NCBI GenBank assembly: GCA_001898645.1
Contig: MKUQ01000016.1
Span: 1 to 64,000, forward strand
From: Burkholderiales bacterium 70-64
Lineage (GTDB): Bacteria > Pseudomonadota > Gammaproteobacteria > Burkholderiales > Burkholderiaceae_E
Reading direction: 5' to 3'
Length of the DNA: 64,000 nucleotides
Positions 25,810 to 41,270 of the stretch are shown piece after piece; position 1 is the stretch's first letter; the number at the start of each line of letters is the position of its first letter. Below the pieces are notes generated by a model. The model had not been told where the DNA came from. It worked only from the letters and a program-made list of their open reading frames with translations, and ran no database searches. The translations under genes and the position numbers were made by a program.

Positions 25810-25837
25810 TGTCTGTCCTTGCGCCGGGGGACAGACA
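25810..25837. promoter_or_regulatory. Inverted repeat between glmE and the divergent MFS gene
   Basis: TGTCTGTCC (25810-25818) and GGACAGACA (25829-25837) form a perfect 9-bp inverted repeat separated by 10 bp. It lies 53 bp upstream of the glmE start and 94 bp upstream of the MFS start. It has no T-tract and is placed like an operator for the divergent pair; a LuxR- or GntR-like dimer could bind it. The owner is unknown. Confidence 0.5.
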
Positions 25838-25931
25838 AAGCGGCAGCGTTGCGGTACGCTGCGGCGGCGGTGCCGGCAAGGGCGCCGCGTGCCCGCGCGA
25901 TTGCGCGCATGCCCGAAGAAGCGCGGAACGC

Positions 25932-27149
25932 GTGAACCGAAGAGCAACTCCCGCAACGCTTCCGATCCTCGCCGGCGCCTCGCTGATGCTCAGCCTGAGC
26001 ATGGGCATGCGGCAGAGCCTCGGCTTGTTCGTGGCTCCGGCCTCGCGTGAGCTCGGCATCGGCACGGCCGATTTCGCGTTCGCGATCGCGGTGCAGAACA
26101 TCGTCTGGGGTCTCGCGCAGCCGCTCGTGGGTGCATTGGCCGACTCGCTCGGCTGCCGCGCGGTGATGCTCGCCGGAGCGGTGCTCTACGGTGCCGGCCT
26201 GCTCTGGACGATGCAGGCGACGGGCGTGTTCGGCATCACCATGGGCAGCGGCGTGCTGGTCGGCATGGCGCTGGCGTGCACGGCCGCCGGCCTGGCGATG
26301 AGCGTCACGGCACGCGCGGTGCCCGCAGGCTCGCGCAGCCTCGCACTGGGCGTCGTCTCGGCGCTCGGCTCGATCGGCACGTTCGTCGCGGCGCCTCTCG
26401 CGCAGGGCCTCATCGTGCGCGACGGCTGGCAGGCCGGTCTGGGCGGCTTCGTCGCCCTGGCCGCCGTGATGATCCCCGCGGCCTTCGTGGCCGGCAACGT
26501 CGACCGGCTACCCGCCGAGGCCGCGGGCATGCAGGCCCGGACCATGCGGGAAGTCGTCGGCGCCGCCGCGCGCAGCCGGCGCTACCTCGTCATGTCGGGC
26601 GCATTCTTCGTCTGCGGGCTGCAGCTCGTCTTCCTCACCACGCACCTGCCCACCTACCTCGCGATCTGCGGCCTCGATCCGATGCTGAGCGCCAAGGCGA
26701 TTGCCGTGCTGGGCGGCTTCAACGTCGTCGGATCCTGGCTCTTCGGGTGGCTGGGTGGGCGGTATCCGAAGCACATCCTGCTCGGGCTCATCTACCTCCT
26801 GCGCTCGGCGTTCATCGCGATCTACTTCGCGCTGCCGGCGACCGAAGCCTCGACGCTGCTGTTCGCAGCCGCCATCGGCTTGCTGTGGCTCGGCGTGATC
26901 CCGCTCGTGAACGGCCTCGTCGCCGAGACGTTCGGCGTGCACTTCATGGCCACGCTCGCCGGCATCGCGTTCCTGAGCCATCAGCTCGGCTCCTTCGTCG
27001 GCGCTTGGGGCGGCGGCCTCGTGCTCGACATGCTCGGCTCGTACCAGCGCGCCTGGCAGTTCGGCGTCGCCGTCGGCCTGGCGGCCGGCGTGGTGCAGAT
27101 CGCCGCGGGGGGCGCGGCACGTAACCGCCTCGAGGCGCGTGCGACCTGA
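25932..27149 (+). CDS. MFS transporter (organic-acid type)
   Basis: The 405-residue carrier has 12 predicted membrane helices and an MFS motif-A-like loop (GALADSLGCR at about 67-76). The overall pattern (SMGMRQSLGLFVAPASRELG near the start, GGRYPKHILL mid-chain) resembles carriers for monocarboxylates or related acids. GTG start at 25932. It is divergent from glmE and convergent with the LuxR gene, so it belongs to the mutase locus by position. It may import a pathway substrate or export an intermediate (inference). Confidence 0.85.
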   Translation: MNRRATPATLPILAGASLMLSLSMGMRQSLGLFVAPASRELGIGTADFAFAIAVQNIVWGLAQPLVGALADSLGCRAVMLAGAVLYGAGLLWTMQATGVFGITMGSGVLVGMALACTAAGLAMSVTARAVPAGSRSLALGVVSALGSIGTFVAAPLAQGLIVRDGWQAGLGGFVALAAVMIPAAFVAGNVDRLPAEAAGMQARTMREVVGAAARSRRYLVMSGAFFVCGLQLVFLTTHLPTYLAICGLDPMLSAKAIAVLGGFNVVGSWLFGWLGGRYPKHILLGLIYLLRSAFIAIYFALPATEASTLLFAAAIGLLWLGVIPLVNGLVAETFGVHFMATLAGIAFLSHQLGSFVGAWGGGLVLDMLGSYQRAWQFGVAVGLAAGVVQIAAGGAARNRLEARAT

Positions 27150-27215: not shown

Positions 27216-28070
27216 TCAGTGTCGCGTCCGCGCAGCCGAGAGGCACAGCGCGAACAGATCGTTGCGGCTGCAGATGCCCAGCTTCTCGTAGGCCCGCTTG
27301 CGATACGTGGCCACGGAGCTCTCGGCGATGCCGAACTCGAGCGCGATCGCCTCGCTCGTCTGGCCCGCCAGCTGCCGCGCACAGACCTCGATCTCGCGCG
27401 ACGACAGACGCGCCGAGCCGCGCGCAAGCAGCCGGCGCACGAGATCGAGCCGGCCGGCGCTCTCGCGTTCGGGCACGTGCGCATCGAGCTCGCGATGCTT
27501 GAGGATGCTGTTCAGGACGATATCGGCCAGCAGGAGCAGGCTCTCGAGCTGGCTCGATTGCGGCCACGCCCGGGCGCGGCACACGTAGAGGTTCGCGTAT
27601 ACCTGGTCGGCGGCGTTGCGCTCGAATGCGGCGATCTTTCCGCCCAGGCCGGCCTCTTCGAAGAAATAGTGGCGGTAGTGCCTGTCGGCGATCTCCTCGC
27701 TGCGGAAGAACCGCGGGCGCAGCGCGTCCGGACGACGCCCGCGCAGCTCGCGCAGTGCCGGATCCTGCGCGAACAGGCCTTCCTCCACGTAGCGCCGGAC
27801 CCGACGCGCGTGATCCAGCGGCTGCGATCGGTTCCAGTAGAAGAACGGCCGGGCGCTTCCCGCGTCGTCGACGCTGAAGACGTTGCACTGATCGAAGCCG
27901 GCGGCGGCGAGCAGCCCGACGAGCCGTGCCGTGAAGTCGTCGCGCCCGATCGAGGCCACGATCGCTGCCACTGCCGGAGCGACCGAGCGCTCGCCGAGCA
28001 GCGATGGCGGCACGGCGCTGCGGACGTCGCAACGGACGGATGCCCGGGCGCCGGCACGCACGGCACTCAC
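27216..28070 (-). CDS. LuxR-type transcriptional regulator
   Basis: The 284-residue protein has a C-terminal LuxR HTH at about 215-275 (LSSREIEVCARQLAGQTSEAI ... SSVATYRKRAYEKLGICSR). The N-terminal 200 residues are a sensor region without recognised acyl-homoserine-lactone motifs; HYRHYFFEEAGLGGK suggests a GAF/PAS-like fold. GTG 28070 overlaps the stop of the second glmE by 4 bp (GTGA), so the regulator is translationally coupled to that mutase gene and likely controls the locus. There is no ATG in the usable region; GTG 28061 is an alternative start. Confidence 0.85.
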   Translation of the reverse strand: MSAVRAGARASVRCDVRSAVPPSLLGERSVAPAVAAIVASIGRDDFTARLVGLLAAAGFDQCNVFSVDDAGSARPFFYWNRSQPLDHARRVRRYVEEGLFAQDPALRELRGRRPDALRPRFFRSEEIADRHYRHYFFEEAGLGGKIAAFERNAADQVYANLYVCRARAWPQSSQLESLLLLADIVLNSILKHRELDAHVPERESAGRLDLVRRLLARGSARLSSREIEVCARQLAGQTSEAIALEFGIAESSVATYRKRAYEKLGICSRNDLFALCLSAARTRH

Positions 28071-29518
28071 CGGATCACCGAAGCGAACTGCAGGTCCGCG
28101 ACGACCGTGTCGAACGTGACCTTGCGGCCGTCCCTGCGCTCGCGCTCGGCGACCTTCTCGCGGTGGTATTCGAGAACCTCCCTCGGCAAGGGGATGTTGC
28201 CGGCATCGAGGTAGCGCACCGCATTCTCCGCGTCGCGAACGACGCGGACCTTCCCGTGGTTGTGTTTCCACGGCGTGAGCATGGTATCGATCCAGCCGAC
28301 CTCCACGCCCTTGCACAGGCCGATCGCCATGTCGCCGCCGGCCGCTTCGAGGCATTTCTCCATCAGCGCACGAACCTCGAGCTCGATCATCGCCTCCTCC
28401 TGCGCGAGCTTCGCGTTCTCGGGCAGCCGCTGGGTGCCCATCAGCCGCAGCATGTGCCTGGCGAGCTTCACCGAACGGGCCATGCCCTCCTTCGTCGGCG
28501 TGGCGCGCGCTTCGTCCTGGCACTTCAGCACGACACCGGGCACGCCGCCCAGAATCGGAACCGCCGCATTCCACGCGATCATCGCGTTGGCCTCGTCCTC
28601 GCCCGGCGGCCACGCGCCCAGGAACGGGAAGGCGCCGGTGAAGAACTCCACGTCGCCGAAGCCGAAGCGCGCGCAGTATTCTTCGCACAGCCGTTCGGTG
28701 ACCCGGATCATCGCGATATCCTGGATCAGGTTCATGCCGAGCCCGTGCTCGATGAACTGGTACTTCACGCCCTGCGCCGCGGCGAGCAGCGCCTCGGAGA
28801 CGCAGACGAACGAGTGGTAGCCGGCGCTGTCGTAACCCGACAGGTTGCACGCGTTCCAGGGGCAGATCGGAACACCGTTCTCGGTATAGATCGCGGCCAG
28901 GCGCGCTTCGTACTGATTGATGCGGATCTCCTCGGCCAGCGGGATGCTCTTGCAGTGCGCGATGACCTCCTGCAGCGAACGCACCGAGCATCCGCTCCAG
29001 CCGGCCGCGAGCACGATCTCCGAGGCGAGGCGTCCGTCTTCGTCGGTGGAGTTGAAATGCAGCGAAACCTCGCTCGCCCGCATGATGCGCCGTGCCTCCT
29101 CGACACCGAAGTTCACGACGGGCCAGCCGTTGAGCATCGACATGCCTTCCTTGCGGCTGCGTTCGATGCCCATGGCCGCGCTTCGGTAGTCGTTCTTGCG
29201 AGTATAGGAGTCCGAATAGATCAGCCATGATCCGTTCGGCGCGAGGTCGGCTTCCCGCTCGACGAACTGCAGGCCATCGATCACGTACTCGGTGAGCGCA
29301 CGGCCGAACTGCGGGATCAGCACGTGCGTGCCCGCCTCCTTCGCGGCCTTGAGCTTGAGCGCCTGGTTCTTCCCGCGTGACAGCTCGCGCGCGGCGGCGA
29401 TGCATTCGTCGAGATCGCGCAGCGCCCGCCCGGTTTCCCACTGGGGAAGCACCTCCTCGGTGCGGATCCGGAAGAACTCTTCGTCGCTCAGGCGCTCGTT
29501 GCGAACCTCGGGTCTCAC
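28067..29518 (-). CDS. Second GlmE-family mutase large subunit
   Basis: This 483-residue paralogue of the first GlmE protein is, by eye, roughly 80% identical along its length. It shares the same replaced substrate residues (PQFG, LHFN, and an extra change to Ser at the Glu171 position), so the two copies probably share a substrate class that is not glutamate. It has no S or L subunit of its own and would need to borrow GlmS from the neighbouring operon. GTG start, with AGGAG 8 nt upstream. Overlaps the LuxR start by 4 bp. A palindrome lies 55 bp upstream of the start. Confidence 0.88.
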   Translation of the reverse strand: MRPEVRNERLSDEEFFRIRTEEVLPQWETGRALRDLDECIAAARELSRGKNQALKLKAAKEAGTHVLIPQFGRALTEYVIDGLQFVEREADLAPNGSWLIYSDSYTRKNDYRSAAMGIERSRKEGMSMLNGWPVVNFGVEEARRIMRASEVSLHFNSTDEDGRLASEIVLAAGWSGCSVRSLQEVIAHCKSIPLAEEIRINQYEARLAAIYTENGVPICPWNACNLSGYDSAGYHSFVCVSEALLAAAQGVKYQFIEHGLGMNLIQDIAMIRVTERLCEEYCARFGFGDVEFFTGAFPFLGAWPPGEDEANAMIAWNAAVPILGGVPGVVLKCQDEARATPTKEGMARSVKLARHMLRLMGTQRLPENAKLAQEEAMIELEVRALMEKCLEAAGGDMAIGLCKGVEVGWIDTMLTPWKHNHGKVRVVRDAENAVRYLDAGNIPLPREVLEYHREKVAERERRDGRKVTFDTVVADLQFASVIR

Positions 29519-29735: not shown

Positions 29736-30545
29736 TCAGCCCGCCACCAGCTTCACCGAGATCTCCCGCGTCGCCTGCGTCAGGTACGGCAGGCAGGTCT
29801 TGACGATCTGCTGCACCGTCGCGACCTTGTGGATCCAGGTGAGGTTCACGACGGCGATGACCTCCTCGCCAACCCAGATGGGGATGGCTATCGAGTCTCG
29901 CTGATCGTCGAACTCGCGTCGCGTCTTCTCGAAATGGCCGCCGAAGTCGGCAGCGCGGCTTCCATAGCCTTGCTGGCGCGTCTCCTCGAGCACCTTCTGC
30001 ACGGCGGCCGGCTTTCTGGCCATGTAGTTGCCGGCATCGTTGCTCGCCGCGAGGCGCTGCAGGACGGCCTGCCGCTCGTCCTCGCCGCAGAAGGCCAGAT
30101 AGGCACGGCCGGTGGCCGAGCGCAGCATGTTGATGCGAAAGCCGATCGGGCCGAGTGCGAGGTGCGAGAAGTACGACCGCGGCCGGTTCGTCTCGATGAC
30201 TTCCATATGCATCAGGCGCGGCACCGCGAGGACAGACGGCCAATTCACCTGGTGGCACAGCCGCTCGAGAATCGGCGCAGCCACCTCGACAAGGAAGCCT
30301 TCGTCGTTGACCTGGGGCGAACGCGGCAGGTAGGAGTGGCTGGCCATGAATGCGCCGTCTGCCAAGCGCTGCCAGATGAGTCCGCGTCCCTCGAGCGTCG
30401 CCAGCACGCGCGTCAGCGTCGCCTTCGGCAGGCCGGTCGCGAGATGGAGGTCATGCAGGCTTGCCGTGCGCGCCTTCTGCAGATAACCCAGAACCTCCAG
30501 TCCGCGATCCAGCGCGCGGATGGTTTTCACTCTGTAGTCACGCAT
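29736..30545 (-). CDS. IclR-family transcriptional regulator
   Basis: The 269-residue protein has an N-terminal winged HTH at about 8-70 (VKTIRALDRGLEVLGYLQ ... TGLPKATLTRVLATLEGRG) and a C-terminal IclR effector domain (about 85-265, with GYGSRAADFG and IAIPIWVGEEVIAVVNLTW). These regulators bind small aromatic or organic acids. ATG 30545 was preferred to GTG 30575 because AGGTGA precedes it and because a near-perfect palindrome then falls in the 5' region. Divergent from the accB-led catabolic operon, which it probably controls. Confidence 0.9.
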   Translation of the reverse strand: MRDYRVKTIRALDRGLEVLGYLQKARTASLHDLHLATGLPKATLTRVLATLEGRGLIWQRLADGAFMASHSYLPRSPQVNDEGFLVEVAAPILERLCHQVNWPSVLAVPRLMHMEVIETNRPRSYFSHLALGPIGFRINMLRSATGRAYLAFCGEDERQAVLQRLAASNDAGNYMARKPAAVQKVLEETRQQGYGSRAADFGGHFEKTRREFDDQRDSIAIPIWVGEEVIAVVNLTWIHKVATVQQIVKTCLPYLTQATREISVKLVAG

Positions 30546-30550
30546 CCAAC

Positions 30551-30567
30551 TTTTCACCTGGAGAAAA
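30551..30567. promoter_or_regulatory. IclR-type operator next to the iclR start
   Basis: TTTTCACCTGGAGAAAA is a 17-bp palindrome with a single mismatched pair, 5 bp upstream of the IclR start codon. IclR proteins recognise 13-17 bp palindromes, so this is a likely autoregulatory and operon operator. The remaining 30568-30818 shows no other feature that I can support. Confidence 0.5.
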
Positions 30568-30818
30568 TCTGACACGTCACGGTAGCGGAGCTGACGAAGC
30601 GGCGCAACACTTTCCCATCAGAAGCGAAGCCAGAGAGAACGACCGGAGACCACCGTGACATACCGTCGCATCCCTGCTTGAATTGAGCCGCACCGGCTCG
30701 CGAGCGCAAGAGCGGCTGCTGATCGTCGTCGTTGGCCGCCCGGCCGTACTGTTCCCGAAACGAGTATCGAGCGCACCTCGAAGGTGCGTCGGCCACTGCA
30801 TTGTCCGAAGAGTTCCGA

Positions 30819-31298
30819 ATGAGCATCTCCCACGAAGACGTCGAACGCATCATCCGTCTGCTCGAAGCCTCCCACTTCGATGAACTGCATCTCGAACTGG
30901 ACGGTCTCAAGCTGGACCTGCGTCGTCGTGGTGCCGGATCGGCCGAAACCGTTGTGGCGAAACAGCTGGCCCTGCCGGCGCCATCGGCACCCGCTCCGAC
31001 GGGAGATTTGACCGTCAGCCCCGTGCCGGCCGCCGCAGCCAGCGGTCTCGTGGAAATCAAGGCTCCGATGCTGGGCACCTTCTACCGTGCCCCCAAGCCC
31101 GGAGCCGATCCGTTCGTCGCGATCGGCAGCCGCATTGAGCCTGACACCGTGATCGGCATCATCGAAGTCATGAAGCTGATGAATTCGGTGGCCGCCGGAG
31201 TGAGCGGCGAGGTCGTCGAGATCGTCGCCCCCGATGCGCATCTTGTCGAGTACGACCAGGTCCTGGTTCGCGTGCATCCGGCCGTGGAGCGGCGATGA
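30819..31298 (+). CDS. Biotin carboxyl carrier protein of a three-part carboxylase
   Basis: The 159-residue BCCP has an N-terminal helical part, a Pro/Ala linker (about 50-75) and a biotinyl domain (about 78-157). The biotin-accepting lysine is K119 in EVMKL (116-120), where the usual AMKM is altered at the first position. The protein carries carboxybiotin from the biotin carboxylase to the carboxyltransferase. It overlaps the next gene by 4 bp. It heads a dedicated catabolic operon rather than the fatty-acid accBC locus, so it is probably not the housekeeping AccB. Confidence 0.9.
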   Translation: MSISHEDVERIIRLLEASHFDELHLELDGLKLDLRRRGAGSAETVVAKQLALPAPSAPAPTGDLTVSPVPAAAASGLVEIKAPMLGTFYRAPKPGADPFVAIGSRIEPDTVIGIIEVMKLMNSVAAGVSGEVVEIVAPDAHLVEYDQVLVRVHPAVERR

Positions 31299-32701
31299 GC
31301 GACGGCTTCCTTTCGACCCGCCAGCCCGCGCGCATCCGCCGCGTGCTCGTGGCCAATCGCGGCGAGATCGCGGTGCGCGTGATCCGCACATTGAGGCGCC
31401 TGGGCATCGGGTCGGTGCTGGCGGTCTCGAGCGCTGACCGCGAAAGCCTGGGGGCACGCCTCGCGGACCGTGCGGTGTGCATTGGACCCGCACGCTCCAC
31501 CGACAGCTACCTGAAGATCGAAACAGTGGTCGCCGCCGCGCTGGGCACCGGCTGCCAGGCCGTACACCCAGGATACGGCTTCCTGTCCGAGCGCGCCGAA
31601 TTCGCCGCCGCCTGCGAACGCCACGGCCTGGTCTTCATCGGTCCGACCGCCGAGCAGATCGACCGCGTGGGCAACAAGCTCGAAGCACGCCGCATCGCCG
31701 AGCAGGCCGGGGTGCCGACGACGCCGGGCGGCCCGGTAGCTTCGCTCGACGAGGCGCTGCACTTGGCCGATCAGGTCGGTTACCCGGTGCTGATCAAGGC
31801 GGTCGGAGGAGGAGGCGGCCGTGGCCTGAAACGCGCCGATACGCCGGCGGACCTGAGAGCGCTGTTCGATCTCGCCAGCGCAGAGGCTCTGGCCGCGTTC
31901 GGGGACGGCCGCATTTACATCGAATGCTTCGTCACGCAGGGACGCCACGTCGAAGTGCAGGTTCTTGGGGACGGCGAGAGCGTCATCCATCTCGGAGACC
32001 GGGACTGCTCGGTGCAACGCCGGTACCAGAAGCTAATCGAGGAGGCGCCGGCACCGCACCTGTCCGGACGCATGCGCCGGGAGCTGCACGCCGCTGCCGT
32101 GCGTTTCGCGCGCCGCATCGACTACCGCAGCCTGGGCACGGTGGAGTTCCTCGTCGATGTCGCGCGACAGAAGTTCTACTTCCTCGAGATGAATGCGCGC
32201 ATCCAGGTCGAGCATCCGGTCACGGAGATGATCACGGGTCTGGATCTCGTGTCCGAGCAGATGCGCGTTGCCGAAGGCCATGCGCTGGCGCTCGATCAGT
32301 CCGACATCCGGCAGCAGGGACATGCAGTGGAGTGTCGCATCAACGCCGAGGATCCGGCCCGCGGGTTCCTGCCGTCGCCGGGCCGCGTCATCGAAGCGCA
32401 CTTCCCGGATCGCGCCGGCCTGCGCGTGGACACCCACATCGAGGACGGCGCGTCGATCCCGCCGTTCTACGACTCGATGATCGCCAAGGTCATCGCACAC
32501 GGCTCCACACGCGAGGAAGCACTGAGCAGGCTCGACGCTGCACTTGCCGAGCTTCGGCTCACCGGTATCCGAACCAACCAGGCGCTGCACCGCGAGGTGC
32601 TTGCAACCCCGGAATTCGCCGCCGGCGGCGTGGACACCGGCTTCCTCGGCCGCTGGCTGGCCGACCGCTCGGCGAACGCCGCCGCAGGACTCCCCGCATG
32701 A
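31295..32701 (+). CDS. Biotin carboxylase subunit
   Basis: This 468-residue ATP-grasp enzyme carboxylates biotin on BCCP with ATP and bicarbonate. N-terminal VLVANRGEIAVRVIRTLRRL, HPGYGFLSE, the glycine-rich ATP loop GGGGGRGLK (about 164-172), and EMNARIQVEHPVTEM with the catalytic Glu/Arg residues are all present. It overlaps its neighbours by 4 bp on both sides. Complete, with the normal length. Confidence 0.94.
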   Translation: MSDGFLSTRQPARIRRVLVANRGEIAVRVIRTLRRLGIGSVLAVSSADRESLGARLADRAVCIGPARSTDSYLKIETVVAAALGTGCQAVHPGYGFLSERAEFAAACERHGLVFIGPTAEQIDRVGNKLEARRIAEQAGVPTTPGGPVASLDEALHLADQVGYPVLIKAVGGGGGRGLKRADTPADLRALFDLASAEALAAFGDGRIYIECFVTQGRHVEVQVLGDGESVIHLGDRDCSVQRRYQKLIEEAPAPHLSGRMRRELHAAAVRFARRIDYRSLGTVEFLVDVARQKFYFLEMNARIQVEHPVTEMITGLDLVSEQMRVAEGHALALDQSDIRQQGHAVECRINAEDPARGFLPSPGRVIEAHFPDRAGLRVDTHIEDGASIPPFYDSMIAKVIAHGSTREEALSRLDAALAELRLTGIRTNQALHREVLATPEFAAGGVDTGFLGRWLADRSANAAAGLPA

Positions 32702-34194
32702 GTACCCATCGCCTCCAGTTCATAGACACCACCCTGCGCGACGGCAACCAGAGCCTGTGGGGAGCGACCGGGCTTCGTACGGGCATGATGCTCGAGATCG
32801 CTCCCGTGCTCGACCAGGTGGGCTACCACGCTATCGATTTCAGCAGCAGCACGCACATGGCCGTCACGGTCCGCTTCCACAAGGAAGACCCATGGGAGCG
32901 CTTCCGGTTGATGAAGGAATACGCACCGCGCACGCCGCTGAGTTTCCTGTCGACGGGCATGCGCTTCATCTCGTGGGAGACTGCGCACCCCGAGCTGATG
33001 GCCCTGTCGTACCAGCTGCTCGTGCGCAACGGTGTCGAGCGCTTCATGGTCATGGATCCGATGAACGACGCGGACGCCGTGATCGACAGCTGCCGGGCGA
33101 TCTCGCGAGCCGGCGGCCGCGAGATCGTCGGCGCACTGGTCTATACGGTCAGTGCGTTCCACGACGACGCGTTCTTCGCCGCCATGGCCCGCCGCCTGGC
33201 CGCCGAGCCGACGATCGGTCGGGTGTACCTGAAAGACCCGGGAGGGCTGCTGACGCCGGAACGCGCGCGTACGCTGCTGCCGGCTCTGCGCGAGGCCGTG
33301 GGCGCCACGCCGCTGGAGCTGCACTCGCACTGCACGATCGGCCTCGCGCCGTTCACCTACGCGATCGCGCCCGGGCTCGGCATCGACGCGCTGCATACGG
33401 CAGCGCGTCCGCTGGGCAACGGCAGCGGCCAGCCGGCGGTCGAGAACACGGTCGCGAACCTGCTGGTCCAGCAGTACGCGGTGGACCTCGACATGGACGC
33501 AGCGGCCCGCGTCAGTGCGTACTTCGTCGCGCTGGCGAAGGCCCAAGGCCTGCCCCAAGGCGCGCCGCAGGAGTACGACGCCCGCTATTTTCAGCATCAA
33601 CTGCCGGGCGGGATGCTCGGCACGATGCGCCGGCAACTGCGCGAGATGCGGCAGGAACACCGGATGGCCGAGGTCTACGTCGAGGTCGAGCGGGTTCGCG
33701 CCGAGCTCGGCTATCCGATCATGGTCACGCCGTTCTCCCAGGTCGTCGCGACGATGGCGGTGATGAACGTGCTTTCTCCGCAGCGCTACGCCACCGTACC
33801 GGACGAAGTGATCCGCTATGTGATCGGCCGCTTCGGCACGCCGCCGGTCCCGATGGACGGCAACGTCCGCGACCGCATCCTCGAACTTCCGCGCGCGAAG
33901 GAGCTCGCGGCGCAGTCGCCGATGCCTGGCCTCGACGAGCTGCGGGGGCGCTTCCCCGCCGGCCTCCCGGATGAGGAGTTCCTGTTGCGCGCCGTGATGC
34001 CGGCGGACCAGGTCGACGCAATGATCGCGGCAGGACCTTGCCGGCGCAGGTACAGCCCGGTGCTGGCGCCGGTCGAGAAGCTGCTGGAGTCGCTCAGATC
34101 GCGGGGCGACCTCGACGAGGTGCGCCTCGAACGCGAAGGGTTCGTCATGGCGCTGTCGCGCCGCGGCGAGACCCCGGAGGGACAAATCCGATGA
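32698..34194 (+). CDS. PYC/OadA-like carboxyltransferase with altered substrate pocket
   Basis: The 498-residue carboxyltransferase has the HMGL-like barrel of pyruvate carboxylase and the 5S/OadA subunits. Metal and catalytic residues are kept: R14-D15 and Q18 in DTTLRDGNQSL, K179 in YLKDPGG, and H209/H211 in HSH. In pyruvate carboxylases the LLRGAN motif supplies an arginine that binds the pyruvate carboxylate; the ungapped alignment from the shared KEDPWER places T86 (FLSTG) there. The enzyme is therefore probably not a pyruvate carboxylase and may act on a ketone. It lacks a fused biotinyl domain; BCCP is separate. ATG overlaps the preceding stop by 4 bp. Confidence 0.88.
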   Translation: MSTHRLQFIDTTLRDGNQSLWGATGLRTGMMLEIAPVLDQVGYHAIDFSSSTHMAVTVRFHKEDPWERFRLMKEYAPRTPLSFLSTGMRFISWETAHPELMALSYQLLVRNGVERFMVMDPMNDADAVIDSCRAISRAGGREIVGALVYTVSAFHDDAFFAAMARRLAAEPTIGRVYLKDPGGLLTPERARTLLPALREAVGATPLELHSHCTIGLAPFTYAIAPGLGIDALHTAARPLGNGSGQPAVENTVANLLVQQYAVDLDMDAAARVSAYFVALAKAQGLPQGAPQEYDARYFQHQLPGGMLGTMRRQLREMRQEHRMAEVYVEVERVRAELGYPIMVTPFSQVVATMAVMNVLSPQRYATVPDEVIRYVIGRFGTPPVPMDGNVRDRILELPRAKELAAQSPMPGLDELRGRFPAGLPDEEFLLRAVMPADQVDAMIAAGPCRRRYSPVLAPVEKLLESLRSRGDLDEVRLEREGFVMALSRRGETPEGQIR

Positions 34195-35030
34195 ACTCAC
34201 ACGCCACGCGGGAACGCCTGCGCCGCTCGCGCGGCTTCGTGTTCGACGTCGACGGTACGCTGGCGTTGGCCGACCGGCACCTCAATGGCTACCAGCCGCT
34301 GCCCGGCGCGCTGCAGACGCTGGCATTGCTGAACCAACGCGGTACGCCTTTCGTCACCTTCACGAACGGCTCGACGAAGACTCCGCTGCAATTGGCGCAC
34401 GCGCTGGCCAAAGCCGGGTTCGATGTCGACACCGACCGCACGCTGACGCCGCTGAGCGTGGCGGTGACGGTGTTCCGCCGCAAGGGCCATCGACGCGTCC
34501 TCGTGCTCGGCGTCGAAGGTGTCTGGCGGCCGCTGGTCGAAGCCGGATTCGACATCGTGCGCTCTCCGGCCCGGACGGACGACGCAGACGCGGTGCTGAT
34601 CGGTTGGCACCCGCAGTTCGGCCTTGCCGATCTGGACGCGGCGTGCCGCGCGGTCTGGGGCGGCGCAGCGCTCTACACGGTTTCCTCGGCCGCGACCCTG
34701 GCCAGCCGCGAGGGTCGCACCCTGGGCATCTCGGGGGCGCTGTCCGCCGCAGTGCGCAGCGTCACCGGCAAGCGCTCCATCGTGGTCGGCAAACCGTCGA
34801 TGAGCGCGTTGAAGGTCGCCTGCGAGCATCTCGGCGCCGTGCCGGCCGACATCGCAGTCGTCGGCGACGACCCGACCCTCGAGAACGCAATGGCGCTGCG
34901 CGGCGGCGCGCTGTCCGTAGGAGTGCACACCGGCCTGTCCGGCGCGGAAGACTTCGCCGCGCTGCCCGAAGGACGGCGCCCGCATCTGTCTCTGCCCGGC
35001 GTGCACGCGCTGCTCGAGTTGCTGAGATGA
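34191..35030 (+). CDS. HAD-IIA family hydrolase (NagD-like)
   Basis: The 279-residue protein is of HAD subclass IIA: motif I DVDGTLALAD (about 18-27) with the nucleophile Asp, motif II TNGSTKTP, and motif III/IV VGKPSMSAL ... VVGDDPTLENA. Such enzymes remove phosphate from small molecules. It overlaps its neighbours by 4 bp, between the carboxyltransferase and the CoA ligase. A phosphorylated enol or carboxyphosphate-related side product is a possible substrate (inference); a housekeeping phosphatase role is also possible. Confidence 0.87.
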   Translation: MNSHATRERLRRSRGFVFDVDGTLALADRHLNGYQPLPGALQTLALLNQRGTPFVTFTNGSTKTPLQLAHALAKAGFDVDTDRTLTPLSVAVTVFRRKGHRRVLVLGVEGVWRPLVEAGFDIVRSPARTDDADAVLIGWHPQFGLADLDAACRAVWGGAALYTVSSAATLASREGRTLGISGALSAAVRSVTGKRSIVVGKPSMSALKVACEHLGAVPADIAVVGDDPTLENAMALRGGALSVGVHTGLSGAEDFAALPEGRRPHLSLPGVHALLELLR

Positions 35031-37012
35031 GTACGACTGCACTGCCGGCGCCGCTGTGGCTGCCGACACCCGAGGCGGTCGCCGCTTCCACGCTCGCCCG
35101 CTACCAGGACTGGCTGGCTGCCCGCGGCCTGGGCCCGGCGAAGCGCGACTACGCAGATCTGTGGGCGTGGTCGGTCGACGAGCTCGAGGCGTTCTGGCGT
35201 TCCATCTGGGACTTCTTCGACGTCCAGGCCGACGGATCTCCGGAGCGCGTGCTCGGCCGGCGCGAGATGCCGGGCGCCGAGTGGTTCCCGGACACGCGGC
35301 TGAACTACGCGGAGCACGTGTTCCGCCACGCGACCGACAAGCGCTGCGCGCTGCTCGCGCGGGCGGAGGGCGAACCGTTGCTCGAAATGTCCTGGGCCCG
35401 GCTGAGGCGCGACGTCGGGGCGCTGGCTGCGACGCTGCGCCGTCTGGGAGTGGGCGCCGGCGACCGCGTCGCCAGCTTCATGCCGAGCCGCCCGGAGACC
35501 GTGGTCGCCTTCCTGGCCTGCGCGAGCCTGGGTGCGGTGTGGTCGAGCTGCTCGCCCGACATGGGCCTGGCCGTGCTGACCGACCGCTTCCGGCAGATCG
35601 AGCCCAGGCTGCTGCTGGCCGTGGACAGCTACCGATACAACGGCAGGCTGCACGCGCGCGGCGCGGTCGTCGAGGAACTGCTCGCCGCGCTGCCCGGCAT
35701 CGAGCACGTGATCCATGTGCCTGGGCCCGGCGGTTCCGAGCCGCCGGAGCCCGGATGGCGCAACCGCCTGTCCTGGGCCGAAGCCATCGCCGCGGATGCG
35801 CCGCTGTCCTTCGAGCGGCTGCCGTTCGCGCACCCGCTGTGGATCGTCTATTCGTCCGGGACCACGGGCCTGCCCAAGGCCATCGTTCACGGCCACGGAG
35901 GCATCGTCCTCACGCACCAGAAGACGATGGCGCTCCAGCACGATCTGCGCGAGGGCGATCGCATGCTGTTCCTCGGGAGTACGGGCTGGATCGTCTGGAA
36001 CCTGCTGATGGGCGCCCTGCTCGTCGGCGGCGTGCCGGTGCTGTACGACGGCAATCCGGCGTGGTCGGAACCGGCGACGCTGTGGCGCTTCCTGGAGGAG
36101 CAGGAGGTCGCGCTGTTCGGCTGCGGTGCCGCGTATCTGGCCGACTGCCGGAAGGAAGGGCTGCGGCCGCGCGAGATCGCCCCGTTGACCGCCTTGCGAG
36201 CGATCAACGTCACCGGTTCGCCGCTACCCGCCGAAGCGTACCGCTGGGTCTACGACGACGTGAAGCGCGATGTCTGGCTGGCGTCCATCAGCGGCGGGAC
36301 GGACATCGCCTCGGGCTTCGTCGCCTGCGCGCCGGGCCTGCCGGTGCAGGCCGGAGAGATCCAGTGCCGCGAGCTGGGCGTGGCCGCCTACGCTTTCGAC
36401 GAGCAGGGGAGCCCGGTGGTAGGGGAGGTCGGCGAGCTGGTCGTCACGCAGCCGATGCCCTCGATGCCGGTGTGCTTCTGGAACGACCCGGGGCATCGCC
36501 GCTATCGCGAAAGCTACTTCGAGACGTTTCCCGGCGTGTGGCGGCACGGCGACTGGATCCGCTTCTCGGAACAGGGTACGAGCGTCATCTTCGGCCGCTC
36601 GGACTCGACGATCAACCGCTTCGGCATCCGCATGGGCACGGCGGAGATCTACCGCGTCGTCGAAGCGCTGCCCGAGGTGCGCGACAGCCTGGTGGTCGAT
36701 CTCGAGTATCTGGGCCGCCCGAGCTGCATGCCGCTGTTCGTCGTGCTGCGCCCCGGTATCGAGCTCGACGATGCGCTCGTCGCGCGCATCGAAGCCGCGG
36801 TCCGCACACAGGCCTCGGCGCGCCACGTCCCCGACCGGATCTGGCAAGTCGACGAGATCCCCCGAACGCTCACCGGCAAGAAGATGGAAGTACCCGTTCG
36901 CCGGCTGCTGCTCGGCACGCCTGTCGACAAGGCGGCCCACCGGGACGCGATGGCCAATCCGCGAAGCCTGGACTTCTTCATTCGCCTGGCTGCGGAGCTG
37001 AACCCTCCGTAG
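35027..37012 (+). CDS. Acetoacetyl-CoA-synthetase-like acid-CoA ligase
   Basis: The 661-residue ANL-superfamily ligase of the acetoacetate-CoA ligase type. N-terminal AACS domain (YQDWLAARGL ... LWAWSVDELEAFWRSIWDFF), P-loop YSSGTTGLPKAIVHGHGG, and the C-terminal catalytic lysine in TLTGKKMEVPVRR. It activates a beta-keto acid to its CoA thioester with ATP. Placed straight after a carboxylase that could make a beta-keto acid from a ketone, which is the main reason for the pathway proposed here. Overlaps the HAD gene by 4 bp. Confidence 0.92.
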   Translation: MSTTALPAPLWLPTPEAVAASTLARYQDWLAARGLGPAKRDYADLWAWSVDELEAFWRSIWDFFDVQADGSPERVLGRREMPGAEWFPDTRLNYAEHVFRHATDKRCALLARAEGEPLLEMSWARLRRDVGALAATLRRLGVGAGDRVASFMPSRPETVVAFLACASLGAVWSSCSPDMGLAVLTDRFRQIEPRLLLAVDSYRYNGRLHARGAVVEELLAALPGIEHVIHVPGPGGSEPPEPGWRNRLSWAEAIAADAPLSFERLPFAHPLWIVYSSGTTGLPKAIVHGHGGIVLTHQKTMALQHDLREGDRMLFLGSTGWIVWNLLMGALLVGGVPVLYDGNPAWSEPATLWRFLEEQEVALFGCGAAYLADCRKEGLRPREIAPLTALRAINVTGSPLPAEAYRWVYDDVKRDVWLASISGGTDIASGFVACAPGLPVQAGEIQCRELGVAAYAFDEQGSPVVGEVGELVVTQPMPSMPVCFWNDPGHRRYRESYFETFPGVWRHGDWIRFSEQGTSVIFGRSDSTINRFGIRMGTAEIYRVVEALPEVRDSLVVDLEYLGRPSCMPLFVVLRPGIELDDALVARIEAAVRTQASARHVPDRIWQVDEIPRTLTGKKMEVPVRRLLLGTPVDKAAHRDAMANPRSLDFFIRLAAELNPP

Positions 37013-37070: not shown

Positions 37071-38306
37071 ATGAGCAAACCCAGGGTCCTGATGATCATC
37101 ACGCTGGACACGAAGGCGGAGGAAGCCCGCTTCGTACGCCAGACGCTGGAAGCCAACGGCGTGGACGTGATCCATCTCGACGCGAGCATCCGCTCGCAGG
37201 TCGACGACAAGGCGGAGATCCAGCCGGCCGAGGTCGCCGCAGCAGCCGGAAAGACGCTTCAGGAAGTGCGCGACCTGAAGCACGAAGGCAAGTGCCAGGC
37301 CGTCATGATCGAAGGCGCGGTCAAGTGCGCGCAGGCGCTGCACGCCAGGACGCCGATCAGTGGAGTCATCGGCGTGGGTGGATCGATGGGCACCGCGCTG
37401 GGCACCGTCGTGATGCAGAGCTTTCCCTACGGGATGCCCAAGGTGATGGTGTCGACGATGGCCTCGGGCTTCACGCGCCCCTTCGTCGGCGCCAAGGACA
37501 TCGTCATGTTCAACCCGGTGTGCGACATCGCGGGCCTGAACAGCATCACGCGAGACGTGTTCCGCAACGCCGCGATCGCGACCGCGTCGATGGCCAGGGG
37601 CTACTCGCCGGTGCGCGAAGAGTCCAGGCCGCTGGTCGCGATGGGCACGCTGAGCACCATCGACCGCTGCACGGTGCGGGTTCGCAAGGCGCTCGAGCAG
37701 CACGGCTACGAGGTGATGGTCTTCCACACGCTGGGTACCGGCGGGATGGCGCTGGACCAGCTCGTGAAGGAGCGCGACGTCGCAGCGGTCGTCGATACCT
37801 CGGTGGTCGAGCACAACGACTTCCTGAACGACGGCCTGTGCAGCGCGGGTCCGGACCGTTCGAAGGCGGCGCTGGAGAAGGGCATCCCGGTCGTCTTTGC
37901 GCCCGGCAACGCCGACTTCATGGTCGCCGGCCCAATCGAGATGGCCAGGCAGCAGTTCCCCGGCAAGCGCTACCACATGCACAACCACGCGCTGACCGCC
38001 GTGCGTACCGAGGCCGACGAGCTGCGCAAGCTGGCCCGCCACCTGGGCGGCCTGATCCGCGAGGCCAGGGGTCCGGTGTCGTTCTTCGTGCCGCTGAAGG
38101 GTTTCTCGAACCACGACAGCCCCGAGGGCCATCTGCACGACCCGTCGCTGTGCCCGGTATTCGCCCAGGCGATCCGCGCCGAGCTGCCCGCCGGCGTGGA
38201 GGTGCGCGAGTTCGACTGCCACATCAACGACGAGGCCTTCGCCGACGCGATCGTCGAGCAGGTACTGAAGGTCACCCACGACAAGGTCGCCAAGGTGGCC
38301 GCCTGA
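37071..38306 (+). CDS. Tm-1-like ATP-binding protein (UPF0261)
   Basis: The 411-residue protein is related to the N-terminal domain of tomato Tm-1. Recognised by VLMIITLDTKAEEARFVRQTLEANG at the start (quoted in part: VLMIITLDTKAEE), GVIGVGGSMGTALG (about 99-112) and VVDTSVVEHNDFL. Bacterial members are found in catabolic operons and are sometimes fused to a TIM-barrel phosphoenolpyruvate-hydrolase-like domain; their reaction is not established. Here it stands alone, 58 bp after the ligase gene with its own GAGGAG ribosome site. A role in ATP-dependent activation of the pathway substrate is conceivable but unproven. Confidence 0.85.
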   Translation: MSKPRVLMIITLDTKAEEARFVRQTLEANGVDVIHLDASIRSQVDDKAEIQPAEVAAAAGKTLQEVRDLKHEGKCQAVMIEGAVKCAQALHARTPISGVIGVGGSMGTALGTVVMQSFPYGMPKVMVSTMASGFTRPFVGAKDIVMFNPVCDIAGLNSITRDVFRNAAIATASMARGYSPVREESRPLVAMGTLSTIDRCTVRVRKALEQHGYEVMVFHTLGTGGMALDQLVKERDVAAVVDTSVVEHNDFLNDGLCSAGPDRSKAALEKGIPVVFAPGNADFMVAGPIEMARQQFPGKRYHMHNHALTAVRTEADELRKLARHLGGLIREARGPVSFFVPLKGFSNHDSPEGHLHDPSLCPVFAQAIRAELPAGVEVREFDCHINDEAFADAIVEQVLKVTHDKVAKVAA

Positions 38307-38327: not shown

Positions 38328-39125
38328 GTGAACCTGAACAACAGGGTGGCGGTAGTCACCGGCGCGGCCGGCGGCATCGGCGAGGAAGTGGCCCGCACGT
38401 TCGCGCGGGCCGGCGCGGCCGTCATGCTGGGCGACGTGCGGCACGACCGCGGCGAGGCGGTCGCGTCGGACATCCGCTCCGATGGCGGACGGGCGCGCTA
38501 CGTGGCGCACGACGCCTCGCGCGAGGACGCATGGGAACGAATCCTCGATGCGGCGATCGCCGACTTCGGAGGACTGGACGTGCTCGTCAACAACGCGGGG
38601 ATCGAGCAGACCTGCCTCATCGAGAACGTGACCCTCGCCGACATCGAGGCGCTGATGGCGGTGAACGTCACCGGCGTGCTGCTGGGGCACAAGCACGCCG
38701 TGCGCCGGATGAAGCCCGGCGGTGCAGCGGGCCGCGGCGGTTCGATCGTCAACCTGTCCTCGGTGGCCGGTCTGATCGGCACACCCGGCCTGGGCGTCTA
38801 CTCCGCCTCCAAGGGTGCAGTACGGCTGCTGAGCAAGGCCGCTGCCGTGGAGTTCGGACGGCTCGGCTACGGCATTCGCGTCAACTCGATCCACCCCGGC
38901 CTGGTCGAGACCGAAATGGGCGAAAAGCTGCTGGGCGACTTCGTCTCGCTGGGCCTCTTCAAGGATCGCGACGAGGCCTACGCGCAGATGAAAGCCGCCA
39001 GTCCGCTCGGCGTCACCAGCCTGCCGCAGGACATCGCCAACGCGGCGCTCTACCTCGCAAGCGACCTGTCGCGCACGGTGTCCGGCGCAGAGCTCGTGTG
39101 CGACGGCGCGATGACCGTTTCCTGA
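38328..39125 (+). CDS. Short-chain dehydrogenase/reductase
   Basis: This 265-residue classical SDR has the cofactor motif TGAAGGIGEEVA (about 12-23), an Asp after the second strand (GDVRHD) favouring NAD over NADP, NNAG, and the catalytic Ser...YSASK pair (YSASKGAVRLL). It probably oxidises a secondary alcohol or 3-hydroxyacyl compound in the operon pathway. GTG start with GAGAGGAG 8 nt upstream. Confidence 0.93.
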   Translation: MNLNNRVAVVTGAAGGIGEEVARTFARAGAAVMLGDVRHDRGEAVASDIRSDGGRARYVAHDASREDAWERILDAAIADFGGLDVLVNNAGIEQTCLIENVTLADIEALMAVNVTGVLLGHKHAVRRMKPGGAAGRGGSIVNLSSVAGLIGTPGLGVYSASKGAVRLLSKAAAVEFGRLGYGIRVNSIHPGLVETEMGEKLLGDFVSLGLFKDRDEAYAQMKAASPLGVTSLPQDIANAALYLASDLSRTVSGAELVCDGAMTVS

Positions 39126-39138
39126 GCGCGGAGGAACC

Positions 39139-39885
39139 ATGGAGCTGCAAGGCAAGGCCGCGCTGGTGACTGGCGCGGCAATGGGCATCGGCCGCGCGAT
39201 CGCCGAGCGGATGGTGGCCGAGGGCGCACAGGTGCTGCTGTGCGACGTGGTCGACGACCTCGGCGAGCAGGCCGCCTCCGAAATCCGCGGTGCCGGCGGC
39301 CATGCCGCTTACCTGCATCTCGACGTGACGAACCCGCAGGCCCATGCGATCGCGGTCGCTCATGCCGAGGCTCTGTTCGGCTGGCTCGACATTGCCGTGA
39401 ACAACGCTGGCATCAGCGGCGAGTTCCGCAAGACCGCGGAGCACACGCCCGAGACATGGCGCCAGGTCATCGACATCAACCTGAGCGGCGTCTTCCTTGG
39501 CGTCCGTGCCCAGATCCCGGCGCTGCTGCGCCGGGGAGGCGGCTCGATCGTCAACATCTCGTCGATCCTCGGGCAGGTCGGCCACCCTGACCTCGCGCCC
39601 TACGTGGCGGCCAAGCACGGCGTCGTGGGCCTCACGCGCACGGTCGCGCTGGAATACGGCCGCCAGCGCGTGCGCTGCAACGCCGTCGGTCCGGGCTTCA
39701 TCTGGACGCGCCTGATCGACAACGTCCCGGAGGAAGGGCGTCGCGGGCTGGCCGAGCTTCACGCCCTCGACCGGCTGGGGGAAGCGCGGGAGGTCGCCGA
39801 ACTGGTGAGCTTCCTCGCGAGCGATCGAGCCAGCTTCCTCACCGGCAACTACTACGCCGCCGACGGCGGCTACCTGTCCCGCTGA
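39139..39885 (+). CDS. Short-chain dehydrogenase/reductase
   Basis: The 248-residue SDR is a different subtype from the previous gene. TGAAMGIGRAIA (about 11-22), CDVVDD (Asp after strand 2, NAD-type), NNAG, and YVAAKHGVVGLTRT with the catalytic Tyr/Lys. It is 13 bp downstream of the first SDR. Two SDRs plus a zinc alcohol dehydrogenase in one operon suggest that stereoisomers of an alcohol, or successive hydroxy intermediates, are oxidised. Confidence 0.93.
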   Translation: MELQGKAALVTGAAMGIGRAIAERMVAEGAQVLLCDVVDDLGEQAASEIRGAGGHAAYLHLDVTNPQAHAIAVAHAEALFGWLDIAVNNAGISGEFRKTAEHTPETWRQVIDINLSGVFLGVRAQIPALLRRGGGSIVNISSILGQVGHPDLAPYVAAKHGVVGLTRTVALEYGRQRVRCNAVGPGFIWTRLIDNVPEEGRRGLAELHALDRLGEAREVAELVSFLASDRASFLTGNYYAADGGYLSR

Positions 39886-39953: not shown

Positions 39954-41270
39954 ATGAGCCAGAAAGACATCGAGAGATCCCGCGCGGCCCGGCCGTCGCG
40001 CCGTGCCGTGCTCGGCGCCGGCAGCGCCGCCGGCCTGTCCCTGATGGCCCCGGGCGCGCTGTTCGCACAGCCCGCCGACGCCAGCCGGCTTCGCATCGGC
40101 TTCATCAGCCCGCGCACCGGCCCACTGGCCGGATTCGGCGAGGCCGACGGCCACGTGCTGGACCTCGCGCGCAAGGCGCTGGCGGGCGGGCTGACGATCG
40201 GCAGCCGCCACTACGCCGTCGAGATCATCGACCGCGACACGCAGTCCGACCCGTCACGGGCCAGCCAGCTCGCGAAGGCGCTGATCGGCAATGAGAAGGT
40301 CGATCTGGTGCTCGTGACCTCGGCCCCCGAGACCGTGAATCCGGTGTCCGACGCCTGCGAGGCCGCCGGCGTACCCTGCCTGTCGACCGTGATGCCTTGG
40401 GAGGCGTGGTATTTCGGCCGCGGCGCGAAGCCGGGCGAACCCTCGCCGTTCAAGTGGAGCTTCCACTTCTCGTTCGGGGTCAAGGAATTCCTGAACTGCT
40501 ATCTGTCGCAGTGGTCGCTGGTGCCGAACAACCGCAAGGTCGCAGCGCTGCTGCCCAACGACGCCGACGGCAACGCGATCCGCGGGAGTCTTGCTCCGGC
40601 GCTGCGGGCAGCCGGATACACCATCGTCGATGCCGGCCCCTACGAGACCGGCACCACCGACTTTTCGGCCCAGATCGCGAAGTTCAAGGCCGAGAAGTGC
40701 GAGCTGTTCGTAACCTTCCCGATCCCGCCGGACTTCGCGACCTTCTGGCGCCAGGCTGCACAGCAGGGTTTCACGAAGCAGGTGAAGGTGGCGCAGGTCG
40801 CGAAGACCGGCCTGTTCCCGTCGACCGTCGAGGCGCTGGGGCCGCTGGGCTTCAACCTCTCCAGCGGCTGCTACTGGCACAAGACCTTCCCGTACAAGTC
40901 GCTGCTCACTGGCGTCACCGGGGCGCAGCTCGTCGACGGATACGAAGCCGCCGCAAGGAAGCAGTGGAACCAGCAGCTCGGTGCATCGATGTCGCTGATC
41001 GACCTCGGCGTCGAGGCACTGAAGACCAGCACGAACCCGAAGGACAAGGCCGCAGTCGCCAAGGCGCTCGGCAGCCTGAAGGCCACGACGATGATGGGCA
41101 CGATCGACTTCACGAAGGGCCCCGTGCCCAACGTCGCGACCGCGGTGCTGATCGGTACGCAGTGGGTGAAGGCACCGAGCGGCGCGAAGTACCGTTACGA
41201 ATACGTCATCACCGAGAACTCGGGCGACCGCAACATCCCGGTCGCAAGCAAGCTCCTGCCCTACGCCTGA
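39954..41270 (+). CDS. Liv-type ABC substrate-binding protein (Tat-exported)
   Basis: The 438-residue periplasmic binding protein of the branched-chain amino acid/amide/urea family. Twin-arginine signal: R16-R17 in PSRRAVLGAG, followed by a hydrophobic stretch ending ALFAQP. The mature part starts LRIGFISPRTGPLAGFG, typical of family 4 peripheral solute-binding proteins. It binds the operon's nutrient for the LivHMGF-like importer encoded next. The ligand is unknown; many relatives bind aromatic or amide compounds. Confidence 0.9.
   Translation: MSQKDIERSRAARPSRRAVLGAGSAAGLSLMAPGALFAQPADASRLRIGFISPRTGPLAGFGEADGHVLDLARKALAGGLTIGSRHYAVEIIDRDTQSDPSRASQLAKALIGNEKVDLVLVTSAPETVNPVSDACEAAGVPCLSTVMPWEAWYFGRGAKPGEPSPFKWSFHFSFGVKEFLNCYLSQWSLVPNNRKVAALLPNDADGNAIRGSLAPALRAAGYTIVDAGPYETGTTDFSAQIAKFKAEKCELFVTFPIPPDFATFWRQAAQQGFTKQVKVAQVAKTGLFPSTVEALGPLGFNLSSGCYWHKTFPYKSLLTGVTGAQLVDGYEAAARKQWNQQLGASMSLIDLGVEALKTSTNPKDKAAVAKALGSLKATTMMGTIDFTKGPVPNVATAVLIGTQWVKAPSGAKYRYEYVITENSGDRNIPVASKLLPYA

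Follow-up and report, generated by a model that had tools for sequence, protein, structure and literature searches.

We analysed a stretch of 64,000 nucleotides from Burkholderiales bacterium 70-64 (contig MKUQ01000016.1, positions 1 to 64,000; hereafter the window) and found an operon that very probably encodes a route of phosphorylation, carboxylation, dephosphorylation and CoA ligation for plant- or plastic-derived aromatic ketones. Its first five genes (30819-37012) code for a biotin carboxyl carrier protein (BCCP), a biotin carboxylase (BC), a PYC/OadA-type carboxyltransferase (CT), a HAD phosphatase and an acetoacetyl-CoA-synthetase-like ligase. Such pathways have been in the literature since 2022, and the window operon would be the newer, MarK-type form of the published pathway, with dehydrogenases and a transporter in one operon. 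The likely targets are 4-hydroxyphenylethanones, i.e., 4-hydroxyacetophenone itself or a near relative (e.g., acetovanillone), together with the matching secondary alcohol; the exact substrate is one that we infer.

An initial annotation of the region had noted that the five genes overlap by 4 bp in sequence. This is confirmed, as each of the four junctions (BCCP/BC/CT/HAD/ligase) reads ATGA and the family matches agree. Two short-chain dehydrogenases (SDRa and SDRb) and a zinc alcohol dehydrogenase (ADH) had been assigned to the same operon, and all three indeed lie on the strand of the carboxylase genes, with short gaps or overlaps, in an operon that runs to position 47067. The HAD protein was part of this inventory, but its role was left unexplained; the kinase candidate, a UPF0261 gene beyond position 37012, was missed, and an ABC transporter and an amidase were not listed. 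Since the likely carboxylase substrate is a phosphorylated aryl ketone, we regard the HAD protein as the pathway phosphatase.

A published counterpart is the hpeHICBADEF cluster of Rhodococcus rhodochrous GD02, which degrades acetovanillone and 4-hydroxyacetophenone (PMC9618137). As described there, HpeHI phosphorylates the phenol (PMC9618137; kinase paper PMC12167813), the three-part biotin enzyme HpeCBA carboxylates phosphorylated ketones only, the NagD-like HAD protein HpeD dephosphorylates, and the acetoacetyl-CoA-synthetase-like ligase HpeE and the hydrolase HpeF are proposed for the final steps (PMC9618137). Both operons combine a three-part biotin carboxylase, a NagD-like HAD protein and a ligase of this type with 4-base overlaps, and the predicted chemistry is identical. 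The window differs in having a UPF0261 gene in place of the two-component HpeHI, in lacking HpeF within the operon, and in its additional SDR, ADH, ABC transporter and amidase genes. By the labels in Table 1 of PMC9618137, the order in GD02 is BCCP-CT-BC, whereas it is BCCP-BC-CT in the window and in a plasmid locus of Rhodococcus JS3073 (L100). The latter reads kinase pair-BCCP-BC-CT-HAD-ligase-amidohydrolase, and its CT is 47% identical to that of the window, with the same motif. The earlier claim that no biotin-dependent ketone carboxylase was known, and that the operon would be a new solution, does not hold, as PMC9618137 presents HpeCBA as a proven biotin-dependent carboxylase with AcvCDE and XccBCA as homologues.

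Other systems share parts of this scheme. In Sphingobium SYK-6, the acvABCDEF products include a biotin carboxylase and a phosphatase homologous to HpeCBA and HpeD; the kinase, however, is the two-component AcvAB, and later steps are described as depending on VceA/VceB instead of a ligase and a hydrolase (PMC9618137, PMC13101465). The p-ethylphenol pathway of Aromatoleum aromaticum EbN1 has the biotin carboxylase XccBCA, AcsA and Hped (PMC4630880, PMC9618137), but its xcc genes reportedly cluster with homologues of hpeHI, and its regulator is the sigma54-dependent EtpR and not an IclR-type protein as in the window. A very similar route opened by a single-component kinase is cited for Novosphingobium aromaticivorans (PMC13101465), which belongs to another bacterial class than the window organism. 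Acetone and acetophenone carboxylases (Acx, Apc) likewise turn a ketone into a beta-keto acid that is then activated with CoA, but they are neither biotin enzymes nor homologous to the window's. Domains of the Acx/Apc type, which we take to be marked by hydantoinase-type ATP-dependent subunits, were absent from the eight operon proteins scanned.

Relatives of the window CT were collected by a scan of one genome per species, with the best 80 of 129 loci being kept; this sample is biased towards the window CT, and contig ends cut many of its loci. They span Proteobacteria, Acidobacteria, Actinomycetes and Geobacter. Among 72,556 plasmids searched with tblastn, 17 records had a CT relative, eight of them at ≥ 47% identity, and five of these eight as well as two of the other nine were inspected. 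The CT alignment comprises 86 rows (80 loci, five plasmid loci and the window). In all of them, the residues corresponding to OadA (PDB 2nx9) D15, K179, H209 and H211, i.e., the metal site and the carbamyl lysine, are retained, as are R14 and Q18. OadA R87 we take to be the arginine holding the substrate carboxylate, a role known from work on pyruvate carboxylase. This position is occupied by T (82 rows), S (3) or V (1), and the arginine is lost throughout, while nine of ten outgroup CTs have it (L005 has G). As the arginine is replaced, the substrate probably carries no carboxylate next to the carbonyl. R89, F90 and W93 are invariant in the family, as is the motif GxRFxxW, and it is a guess of ours that R89 binds a phosphate.

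In a quick tree of the 86 family rows and ten outgroup rows (96 in total, some with long branches), the family formed one clade (SH-aLRT 99), and the motif TG[MLF]RF[IM][SA]W is common to the CTs of hpe-like clusters. The CT of L100 has the motif but sits on a basal long branch, where the tool warned of long branches meeting. Separate BCCP, BC and PYC/OadA-type CT subunits are encoded together in the window, as in HpeCBA, AcvCDE and XccBCA, and we predict that the window CT belongs to this family of phosphophenylethanone carboxylases. The biotin-dependent ketone carboxylation proposed in the initial annotation is borne out in outline by the loss of the pyruvate arginine, though not as a novelty.

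The neighbourhood of the CT is conserved. BCCP, BC, CT and HAD follow each other in this order, closely spaced, in 55 of the 80 loci; a HAD gene lies near CT in 68 (matches 38–73% identical), and a ligase of the window's family in 25. With the order kept to this extent, the grouping of the five genes is not due to chance. The five-gene order had been suggested as something to look for in other genomes: its BCCP-BC-CT-HAD part recurs widely, and a linkage of carboxylase and ligase, whose absence was to count against the initial proposal, is present in relatives, although only in the minority just given. The ligase scored 915.6 bits against the acetoacetate--CoA ligase model NF002937 (cut-off 639) and shares 46% identity with its counterpart in the hpe-like cluster L100, which fits the earlier proposal that it acts on a beta-keto-acid product.

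The enzyme at the start of the route varies among relatives. We labelled loci with a UPF0261 gene as T-type and loci with HpeHI-like kinase genes as K-type. A kinase of either kind is present in 67 of the 80 loci, i.e., HpeHI-like genes only in 49, UPF0261 only in 17 and both in one (L044, whose UPF0261 protein is only 30% identical to that of the window), with 13 having neither. One representative of each of the two clusters of HpeHI-like proteins matches PEP-utilizers and PPDK_N. Among the 13 loci with neither, L016 has a UPF0261 gene on another contig (85% identical), and 11 end too near CT on one or both sides. For the 45 loci with ≥ 3.5 kb upstream and ≥ 4 kb downstream, the corresponding numbers are 29, 14, one and one. 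Window-type UPF0261 proteins were found in none of 52 K-type genomes or records (E 1e-30; best match 37%) and, at ≥ 56% identity, in 19 of 31 other genomes (E 1e-30), among them every genome with one of the 17 T-labelled loci; the remaining 12 were without one. Across 300 evenly drawn genomes of the window's order, a window-type protein occurred only in the window's own (E 1e-90). An HpeH-like query against the whole window genome matched only on contigs C46 and C28, and not on the window contig (C16). Eight of 13 T-type genomes are without a full-length HpeH-like protein and have at most a 166-residue stretch. An extra HpeH-like protein in Eoetvoesiella adjoins a second carboxylase cluster, and Neopusillimonas also has one.

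On the CT tree, the kinase label needed six changes, at least five of them forced by starred branches, when 24 of the 96 rows were left uncounted (ten outgroup rows and 14 without a clear label). A single T clade was rejected (p-AU 4.5e-52). Absent from this tree are L001 (the window itself), L002 (likely the same genome as L077), L006, L009 and L013–L015. Depending on the lineage, the UPF0261 gene is placed after the ligase, directly 3' of HAD, just 5' of BCCP, or 9 kb upstream. The pattern matches that of repeated replacement of one enzyme by another, with at least five exchanges between the two kinases along the CT tree.

The window UPF0261 protein is 54–55% identical over 394 residues/401 columns to PDB entry 9mpy, which is titled as Saro_1862, a UPF0261 domain protein of Novosphingobium aromaticivorans with acetovanillone bound. 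Other UPF0261 proteins listed in the whole-genome searches are ≤ 37% identical to the window's. The introduction of PMC13101465 cites MarK as a single-component kinase (source there: Hall et al. 2025 JBC), and Saro_1862 is probably MarK. On the strength of 9mpy and this citation, replacement of HpeHI by a single-component kinase has already been described for one organism, and our idea of UPF0261 as an unreported kinase was wrong, since the 9mpy title and the citation in PMC13101465 point to its prior discovery. We predict that the window protein is a MarK-like single-component kinase of a hydroxyphenylethanone. Its AlphaFold2 model (mean pLDDT 89.4) has an arrangement closer to Tm-1 (3wrw, 30% identical) than to 9mpy. 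A UPF0261 alignment comprised 16 of 21 known window-type proteins (window included) and three of a second subfamily, without L018 (stop in the frame call), L024 (near-copy of L020) and the plasmid loci L096, L098 and L099.

The dehydrogenases bear on the substrate. SDRb is 59.5% identical to PDB 4ure over 247 residues, with 299 bits as compared to 233 for the next PDB sequence. Although 4ure carries the name cyclohexanol dehydrogenase, we assume that it is Hped of EbN1, given that both its length (248) and its termini match the Hped gene and primers in PMC10940773. Hped converts 1-(4-hydroxyphenyl)ethanol to 4-hydroxyacetophenone, and SDRb is predicted to be an Hped-like dehydrogenase that forms the hydroxyacetophenone from the alcohol. 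The nearest PDB chains of SDRa are R-specific alcohol dehydrogenases. SDRa may, as a weak assignment, correspond to EbA309 of EbN1, which was compared by its primer-encoded ends only: the end GMTIS of EbA309 resembles AMTVS of the window protein. The window genome encodes a 4-hydroxybenzoyl-CoA reductase alpha subunit (1268.9 bits, curated cut-off 994.55) and one amidohydrolase that is 71% identical to the one recurring beside CT in relatives; from its place in L100, we take the latter as HpeF-like. The region of the window genome around this gene (L141) gave no match to other pathway proteins except ABC transporter parts. That the natural substrate is 4-hydroxyacetophenone/1-(4-hydroxyphenyl)ethanol is somewhat more probable than not.

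The route would start with import via the ABC transporter, after which SDRb, perhaps with SDRa or ADH, would oxidise the 1-arylethanol to the aryl methyl ketone. The MarK-like UPF0261 protein would then phosphorylate the phenol OH with ATP, BC would put CO2 on BCCP, CT would attach this CO2 at the methyl group of the phospho-ketone, and HAD would strip the phosphate to give a 4-hydroxybenzoylacetate. The ligase would form the CoA thioester of this product, and a thiolase or beta-ketoacyl-CoA hydrolase encoded elsewhere would release an aroyl product and acetyl-CoA. Phosphorylation, carboxylation and dephosphorylation have been demonstrated by others for homologues, the GD02 enzymes (PMC9618137). 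The sequences of the window and its relatives show directly which genes are present, in which order and how well they are conserved, as well as the residues of the CT site and the exchange of UPF0261 for HpeHI between loci.

Several points weigh against this reading of the operon. The activities of the window's own proteins are all predicted, no hydrolase or thiolase for cleavage of the CoA thioester was recognised in the operon, and the amidase and zinc ADH are left without a definite step in the pathway. A ligase is scarce near CT in the relatives, and six of the 17 T-type loci have none in the examined stretch (L017, L018, L027, L029, L039, and L056). HAD was not found in five loci with ≥ 5 kb downstream (L040, L044, L049, L055, and L087), no BC lies between BCCP and CT in three loci with ≥ 3 kb upstream (L030, L067, and L083), and L087 is a true exception in having neither kinase nor HAD. 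The UPF0261 model fits 9mpy loosely over the whole chain (root-mean-square deviation 8.2 Å, TM-score 0.63), meaning that the domains are arranged differently. A full-length HpeH-like protein occurs elsewhere in the window genome and in four of 12 other T-type whole genomes (5/13 together). In the window genome, this concerns a PpsAB-type kinase pair on contig C46 (45–46% identity to the HpeH-like query); this pair might be what phosphorylates the substrate, in place of UPF0261. Furthermore, UPF0261 is not everywhere a substitute for the two-component kinase, since a second UPF0261 subfamily accompanies pairs of this kind.

If the C46 pair were the kinase of an otherwise unchanged pathway, the window UPF0261 protein would do something else, e.g., carry the phospho-substrate to the carboxylase. 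The existence of the pair in the window genome, the co-occurrence of subfamily 2 with such pairs and an interaction of UPF0261 proteins with a TIM-barrel partner family, inferred in an earlier study (PMC5028733), speak for this possibility. We nevertheless consider it unlikely: the majority of T-type genomes manage without a full-length HpeH-like protein, the C46 pair adjoins UbiD-family, UPF0261 subfamily 2 and CBS genes and hence probably serves another pathway, and MarK is called a single-component kinase in PMC13101465. In the version of the initial annotation, in turn, the biotin enzyme would carboxylate a methyl ketone (acetone, butanone or cyclohexanone) directly, with no phosphate on it; HAD and UPF0261 would then have no part in the reaction or would serve a different step. 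A ligase of the acetoacetate--CoA type, a CT without the pyruvate arginine, the alcohol dehydrogenases in the operon and the five loci that lack HAD despite room for it would all suit such a reaction. It is made quite improbable by the frequency of HAD and of some kinase near CT, by the inactivity of HpeCBA on unphosphorylated acetovanillone or 4-hydroxyacetophenone reported in PMC9618137, by the acetovanillone bound in the nearest UPF0261 structure and by SDRb being nearest to Hped among solved structures. We rejected an acetone-type substrate, since HpeCBA needs the phosphate and most relatives keep kinase and HAD; a phosphorylated aryl ketone is likelier than a free methyl ketone.

An ordinary operon for a pyruvate or 2-oxo-acid carboxylase, anaplerotic or linked to transport, is very improbable. 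The window CT is 33–36% identical to three OadA/PycB-type proteins and the metal site is identical, but the arginine for the substrate carboxylate is replaced in every row, for which reason a plain carboxylase of this kind was rejected. The linkage to ligase, HAD and kinase also argues against it, as does another CT of the same genome, which is part of an open frame of 1202 residues and whose length suggests a pyruvate carboxylase.

We return to the phospho-ketone route and its occurrence on plasmids. In Sphingomonas bisphenolicum AO1, pBAR1 carries genes for a carotenoid oxygenase, aldehyde dehydrogenase, thioesterase, BKACE, UPF0261, BCCP, BC, CT and HAD (L096 1563-12348), and a plasmid of Pseudomonas putida YC-AE1 carries genes for a ligase, UPF0261, BCCP, BC, CT, HAD and an amidohydrolase (L098 6626-15216). 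AO1 is presumably a bisphenol A degrader, judging from its name. The carotenoid oxygenase, aldehyde dehydrogenase, BKACE and thioesterase of pBAR1 could cover the conversion of a stilbene intermediate to 4-hydroxybenzoate. We rejected the idea of UPF0261 as a beta-keto-acid-cleaving enzyme, since that slot looks filled, by BKACE and thioesterase on pBAR1 and by ligase and amidohydrolase on the YC-AE1 plasmid. YC-AE1 degrades bisphenol A, and PMC9733184 states, as data not shown, that p-hydroxyacetophenone was consumed fully in 24 h. Against a link to bisphenol A, the same paper names a '4-hydroxyacetophenone hydrolase' among the induced genes, so another route may serve in YC-AE1. Neither the YC-AE1 transcriptome paper nor the YC-JY1 paper uses the word 'carboxylase' in its main text.

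The second UPF0261 subfamily shares some 30% identity with the window protein and is found at L132 7113-8372 (window genome, contig C46) and in L133, L134, L039, L044 and L056. In L132, L133 and L134, its gene lies with PpsA/PpsB-like kinase genes, and in the window genome, Geobacter and Telmatospirillum it is beside an HpeH-like protein. On C46, a UbiD-family gene (Pfam, window genome only) and a CBS-domain gene adjoin it. Among 399 genomes of the order, subfamily 2 occurs in four, always about 3 kb from a PpsA-like gene, which itself is present in six. Because a genome can have a two-component kinase and a UPF0261 protein at once, we restrict the kinase reading to the window's subfamily. A broader picture, which we regard as doubtful when taken as a whole, would join these threads: UPF0261 would be a small-molecule kinase family freely exchanged with the HpeHI dikinase (five or more exchanges on a single carboxylase tree), the route on the degrader plasmids (AO1 pBAR1, YC-AE1) would serve that branch of bisphenol A breakdown which passes through 4-hydroxyacetophenone, subfamily 2, standing beside four of six PpsA-like genes in the 399 genomes, would be an undescribed phenol kinase or phenylphosphate-handling enzyme, and, in a further step, a metabolic kinase would be the ancestor of Tm-1, the virus-resistance protein of plants.

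Phosphorylation, carboxylation and dephosphorylation thus emerge as a widespread route for aryl ketones, with the first enzyme as a swappable module. Because aryl ketones come from lignin processing and bisphenol A, an operon uniting kinase, carboxylase, phosphatase, ligase and dehydrogenases would be useful for engineering. Plasmids bearing the module may explain the use of 4-hydroxyacetophenone by some bisphenol A degraders.

Coordinates of the operon and its divergent regulator gene in the window, with predicted functions
Feature	Position	Strand	Basis
IclR-type regulator	29736-30575	-	Pfam HTH_IclR/IclR_C; divergent from operon
BCCP, HpeC-like	30819-31298	+	Biotin_lipoyl 2.2e-15, TIGR00531; VMKLM present
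Biotin carboxylase (BC)	31295-32701	+	Biotin_carb_N/C, CPSase_L_D2
Carboxyltransferase (CT), PYC/OadA-type	32698-34194	+	HMGL-like and PYC_OADA
Predicted HAD (NagD-like) phosphatase, HpeD/AcvF-like	34191-35030	+	HAD hydrolase models
Acetoacetyl-CoA-synthetase-like ligase, HpeE-like, predicted beta-keto-acid--CoA ligase	35027-37012	+	NF002937, TIGR01217
UPF0261/Tm-1-like protein, predicted MarK-like single-component kinase	37071-38306	+	Pfam UPF0261 N and C
SDRa dehydrogenase	38328-39125	+	adh_short
SDRb dehydrogenase, Hped-like	39139-39885	+	59.5% identity to 4ure
ABC transporter substrate-binding protein	39954-41270	+	Peripla_BP_6
ABC transporter ATP-binding protein a	41281-42021	+	Open reading frame, tblastn matches in related loci
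ABC transporter ATP-binding protein b	42018-42740	+	ABC_tran
ABC transporter permease a	42733-43647	+	Open reading frame, tblastn matches in related loci
ABC transporter permease b	43644-44690	+	Open reading frame, tblastn matches in related loci
Amidase	44687-45964	+	PF01425 2.7e-74
Zinc alcohol dehydrogenase (ADH)	45961-47067	+	ADH_N, ADH_zinc_N

We take VMKLM in the BCCP to be the biotinyl motif. The best NCBIfam HAD-IIA models score under their cut-offs for the HAD protein. The IclR-type regulator has tblastn matches of 69–80% identity beside BCCP in Burkholderiales loci and is kept in most Burkholderiales copies. A copy of the substrate-binding protein (65% identical) adjoins the HpeHI-type cluster L044, which also holds a 66% identical copy of the zinc ADH.

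Regarding the surroundings of the operon, two methylaspartate mutase epsilon chains (MutE; 24293-26101 and 28067-29518, both on the minus strand) are encoded close together beside it, and TRAP transporter genes lie beyond this pair (DctP 18103-19131, DctM 19159-20493). MutE had zero matches in the stretches around 87 other loci scanned. In some relatives (L030, L067, L083, and also L088, L091, and L095), BCCP is directly 5' of CT with no BC between; these clusters may borrow BC from elsewhere. The K-type cluster L055 is on a contig titled as a Klebsiella pneumoniae metagenome-assembled genome, but groups with gammaproteobacterial metagenome-assembled genomes on the CT tree, and the species label is probably wrong. 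Other CT families (L101 8983-12395; L003–L008) are 37–41% identical to the window CT. On Caballeronia pNK84 (L101), the order is CT-BCCP-BC, with genes for acetoacetate decarboxylase, carbonic anhydrase and biotin synthesis in the vicinity but without a match for HAD; this type is perhaps another unstudied carboxylase. Finally, the C-terminal tail of the window CT (LLESLRSRGDLDEVRLEREGFVMALSRRG) resembles, by eye, the N-terminal segment of the BCCP (IIRLLEASHFDELHLELDGLKLDLRRRG).

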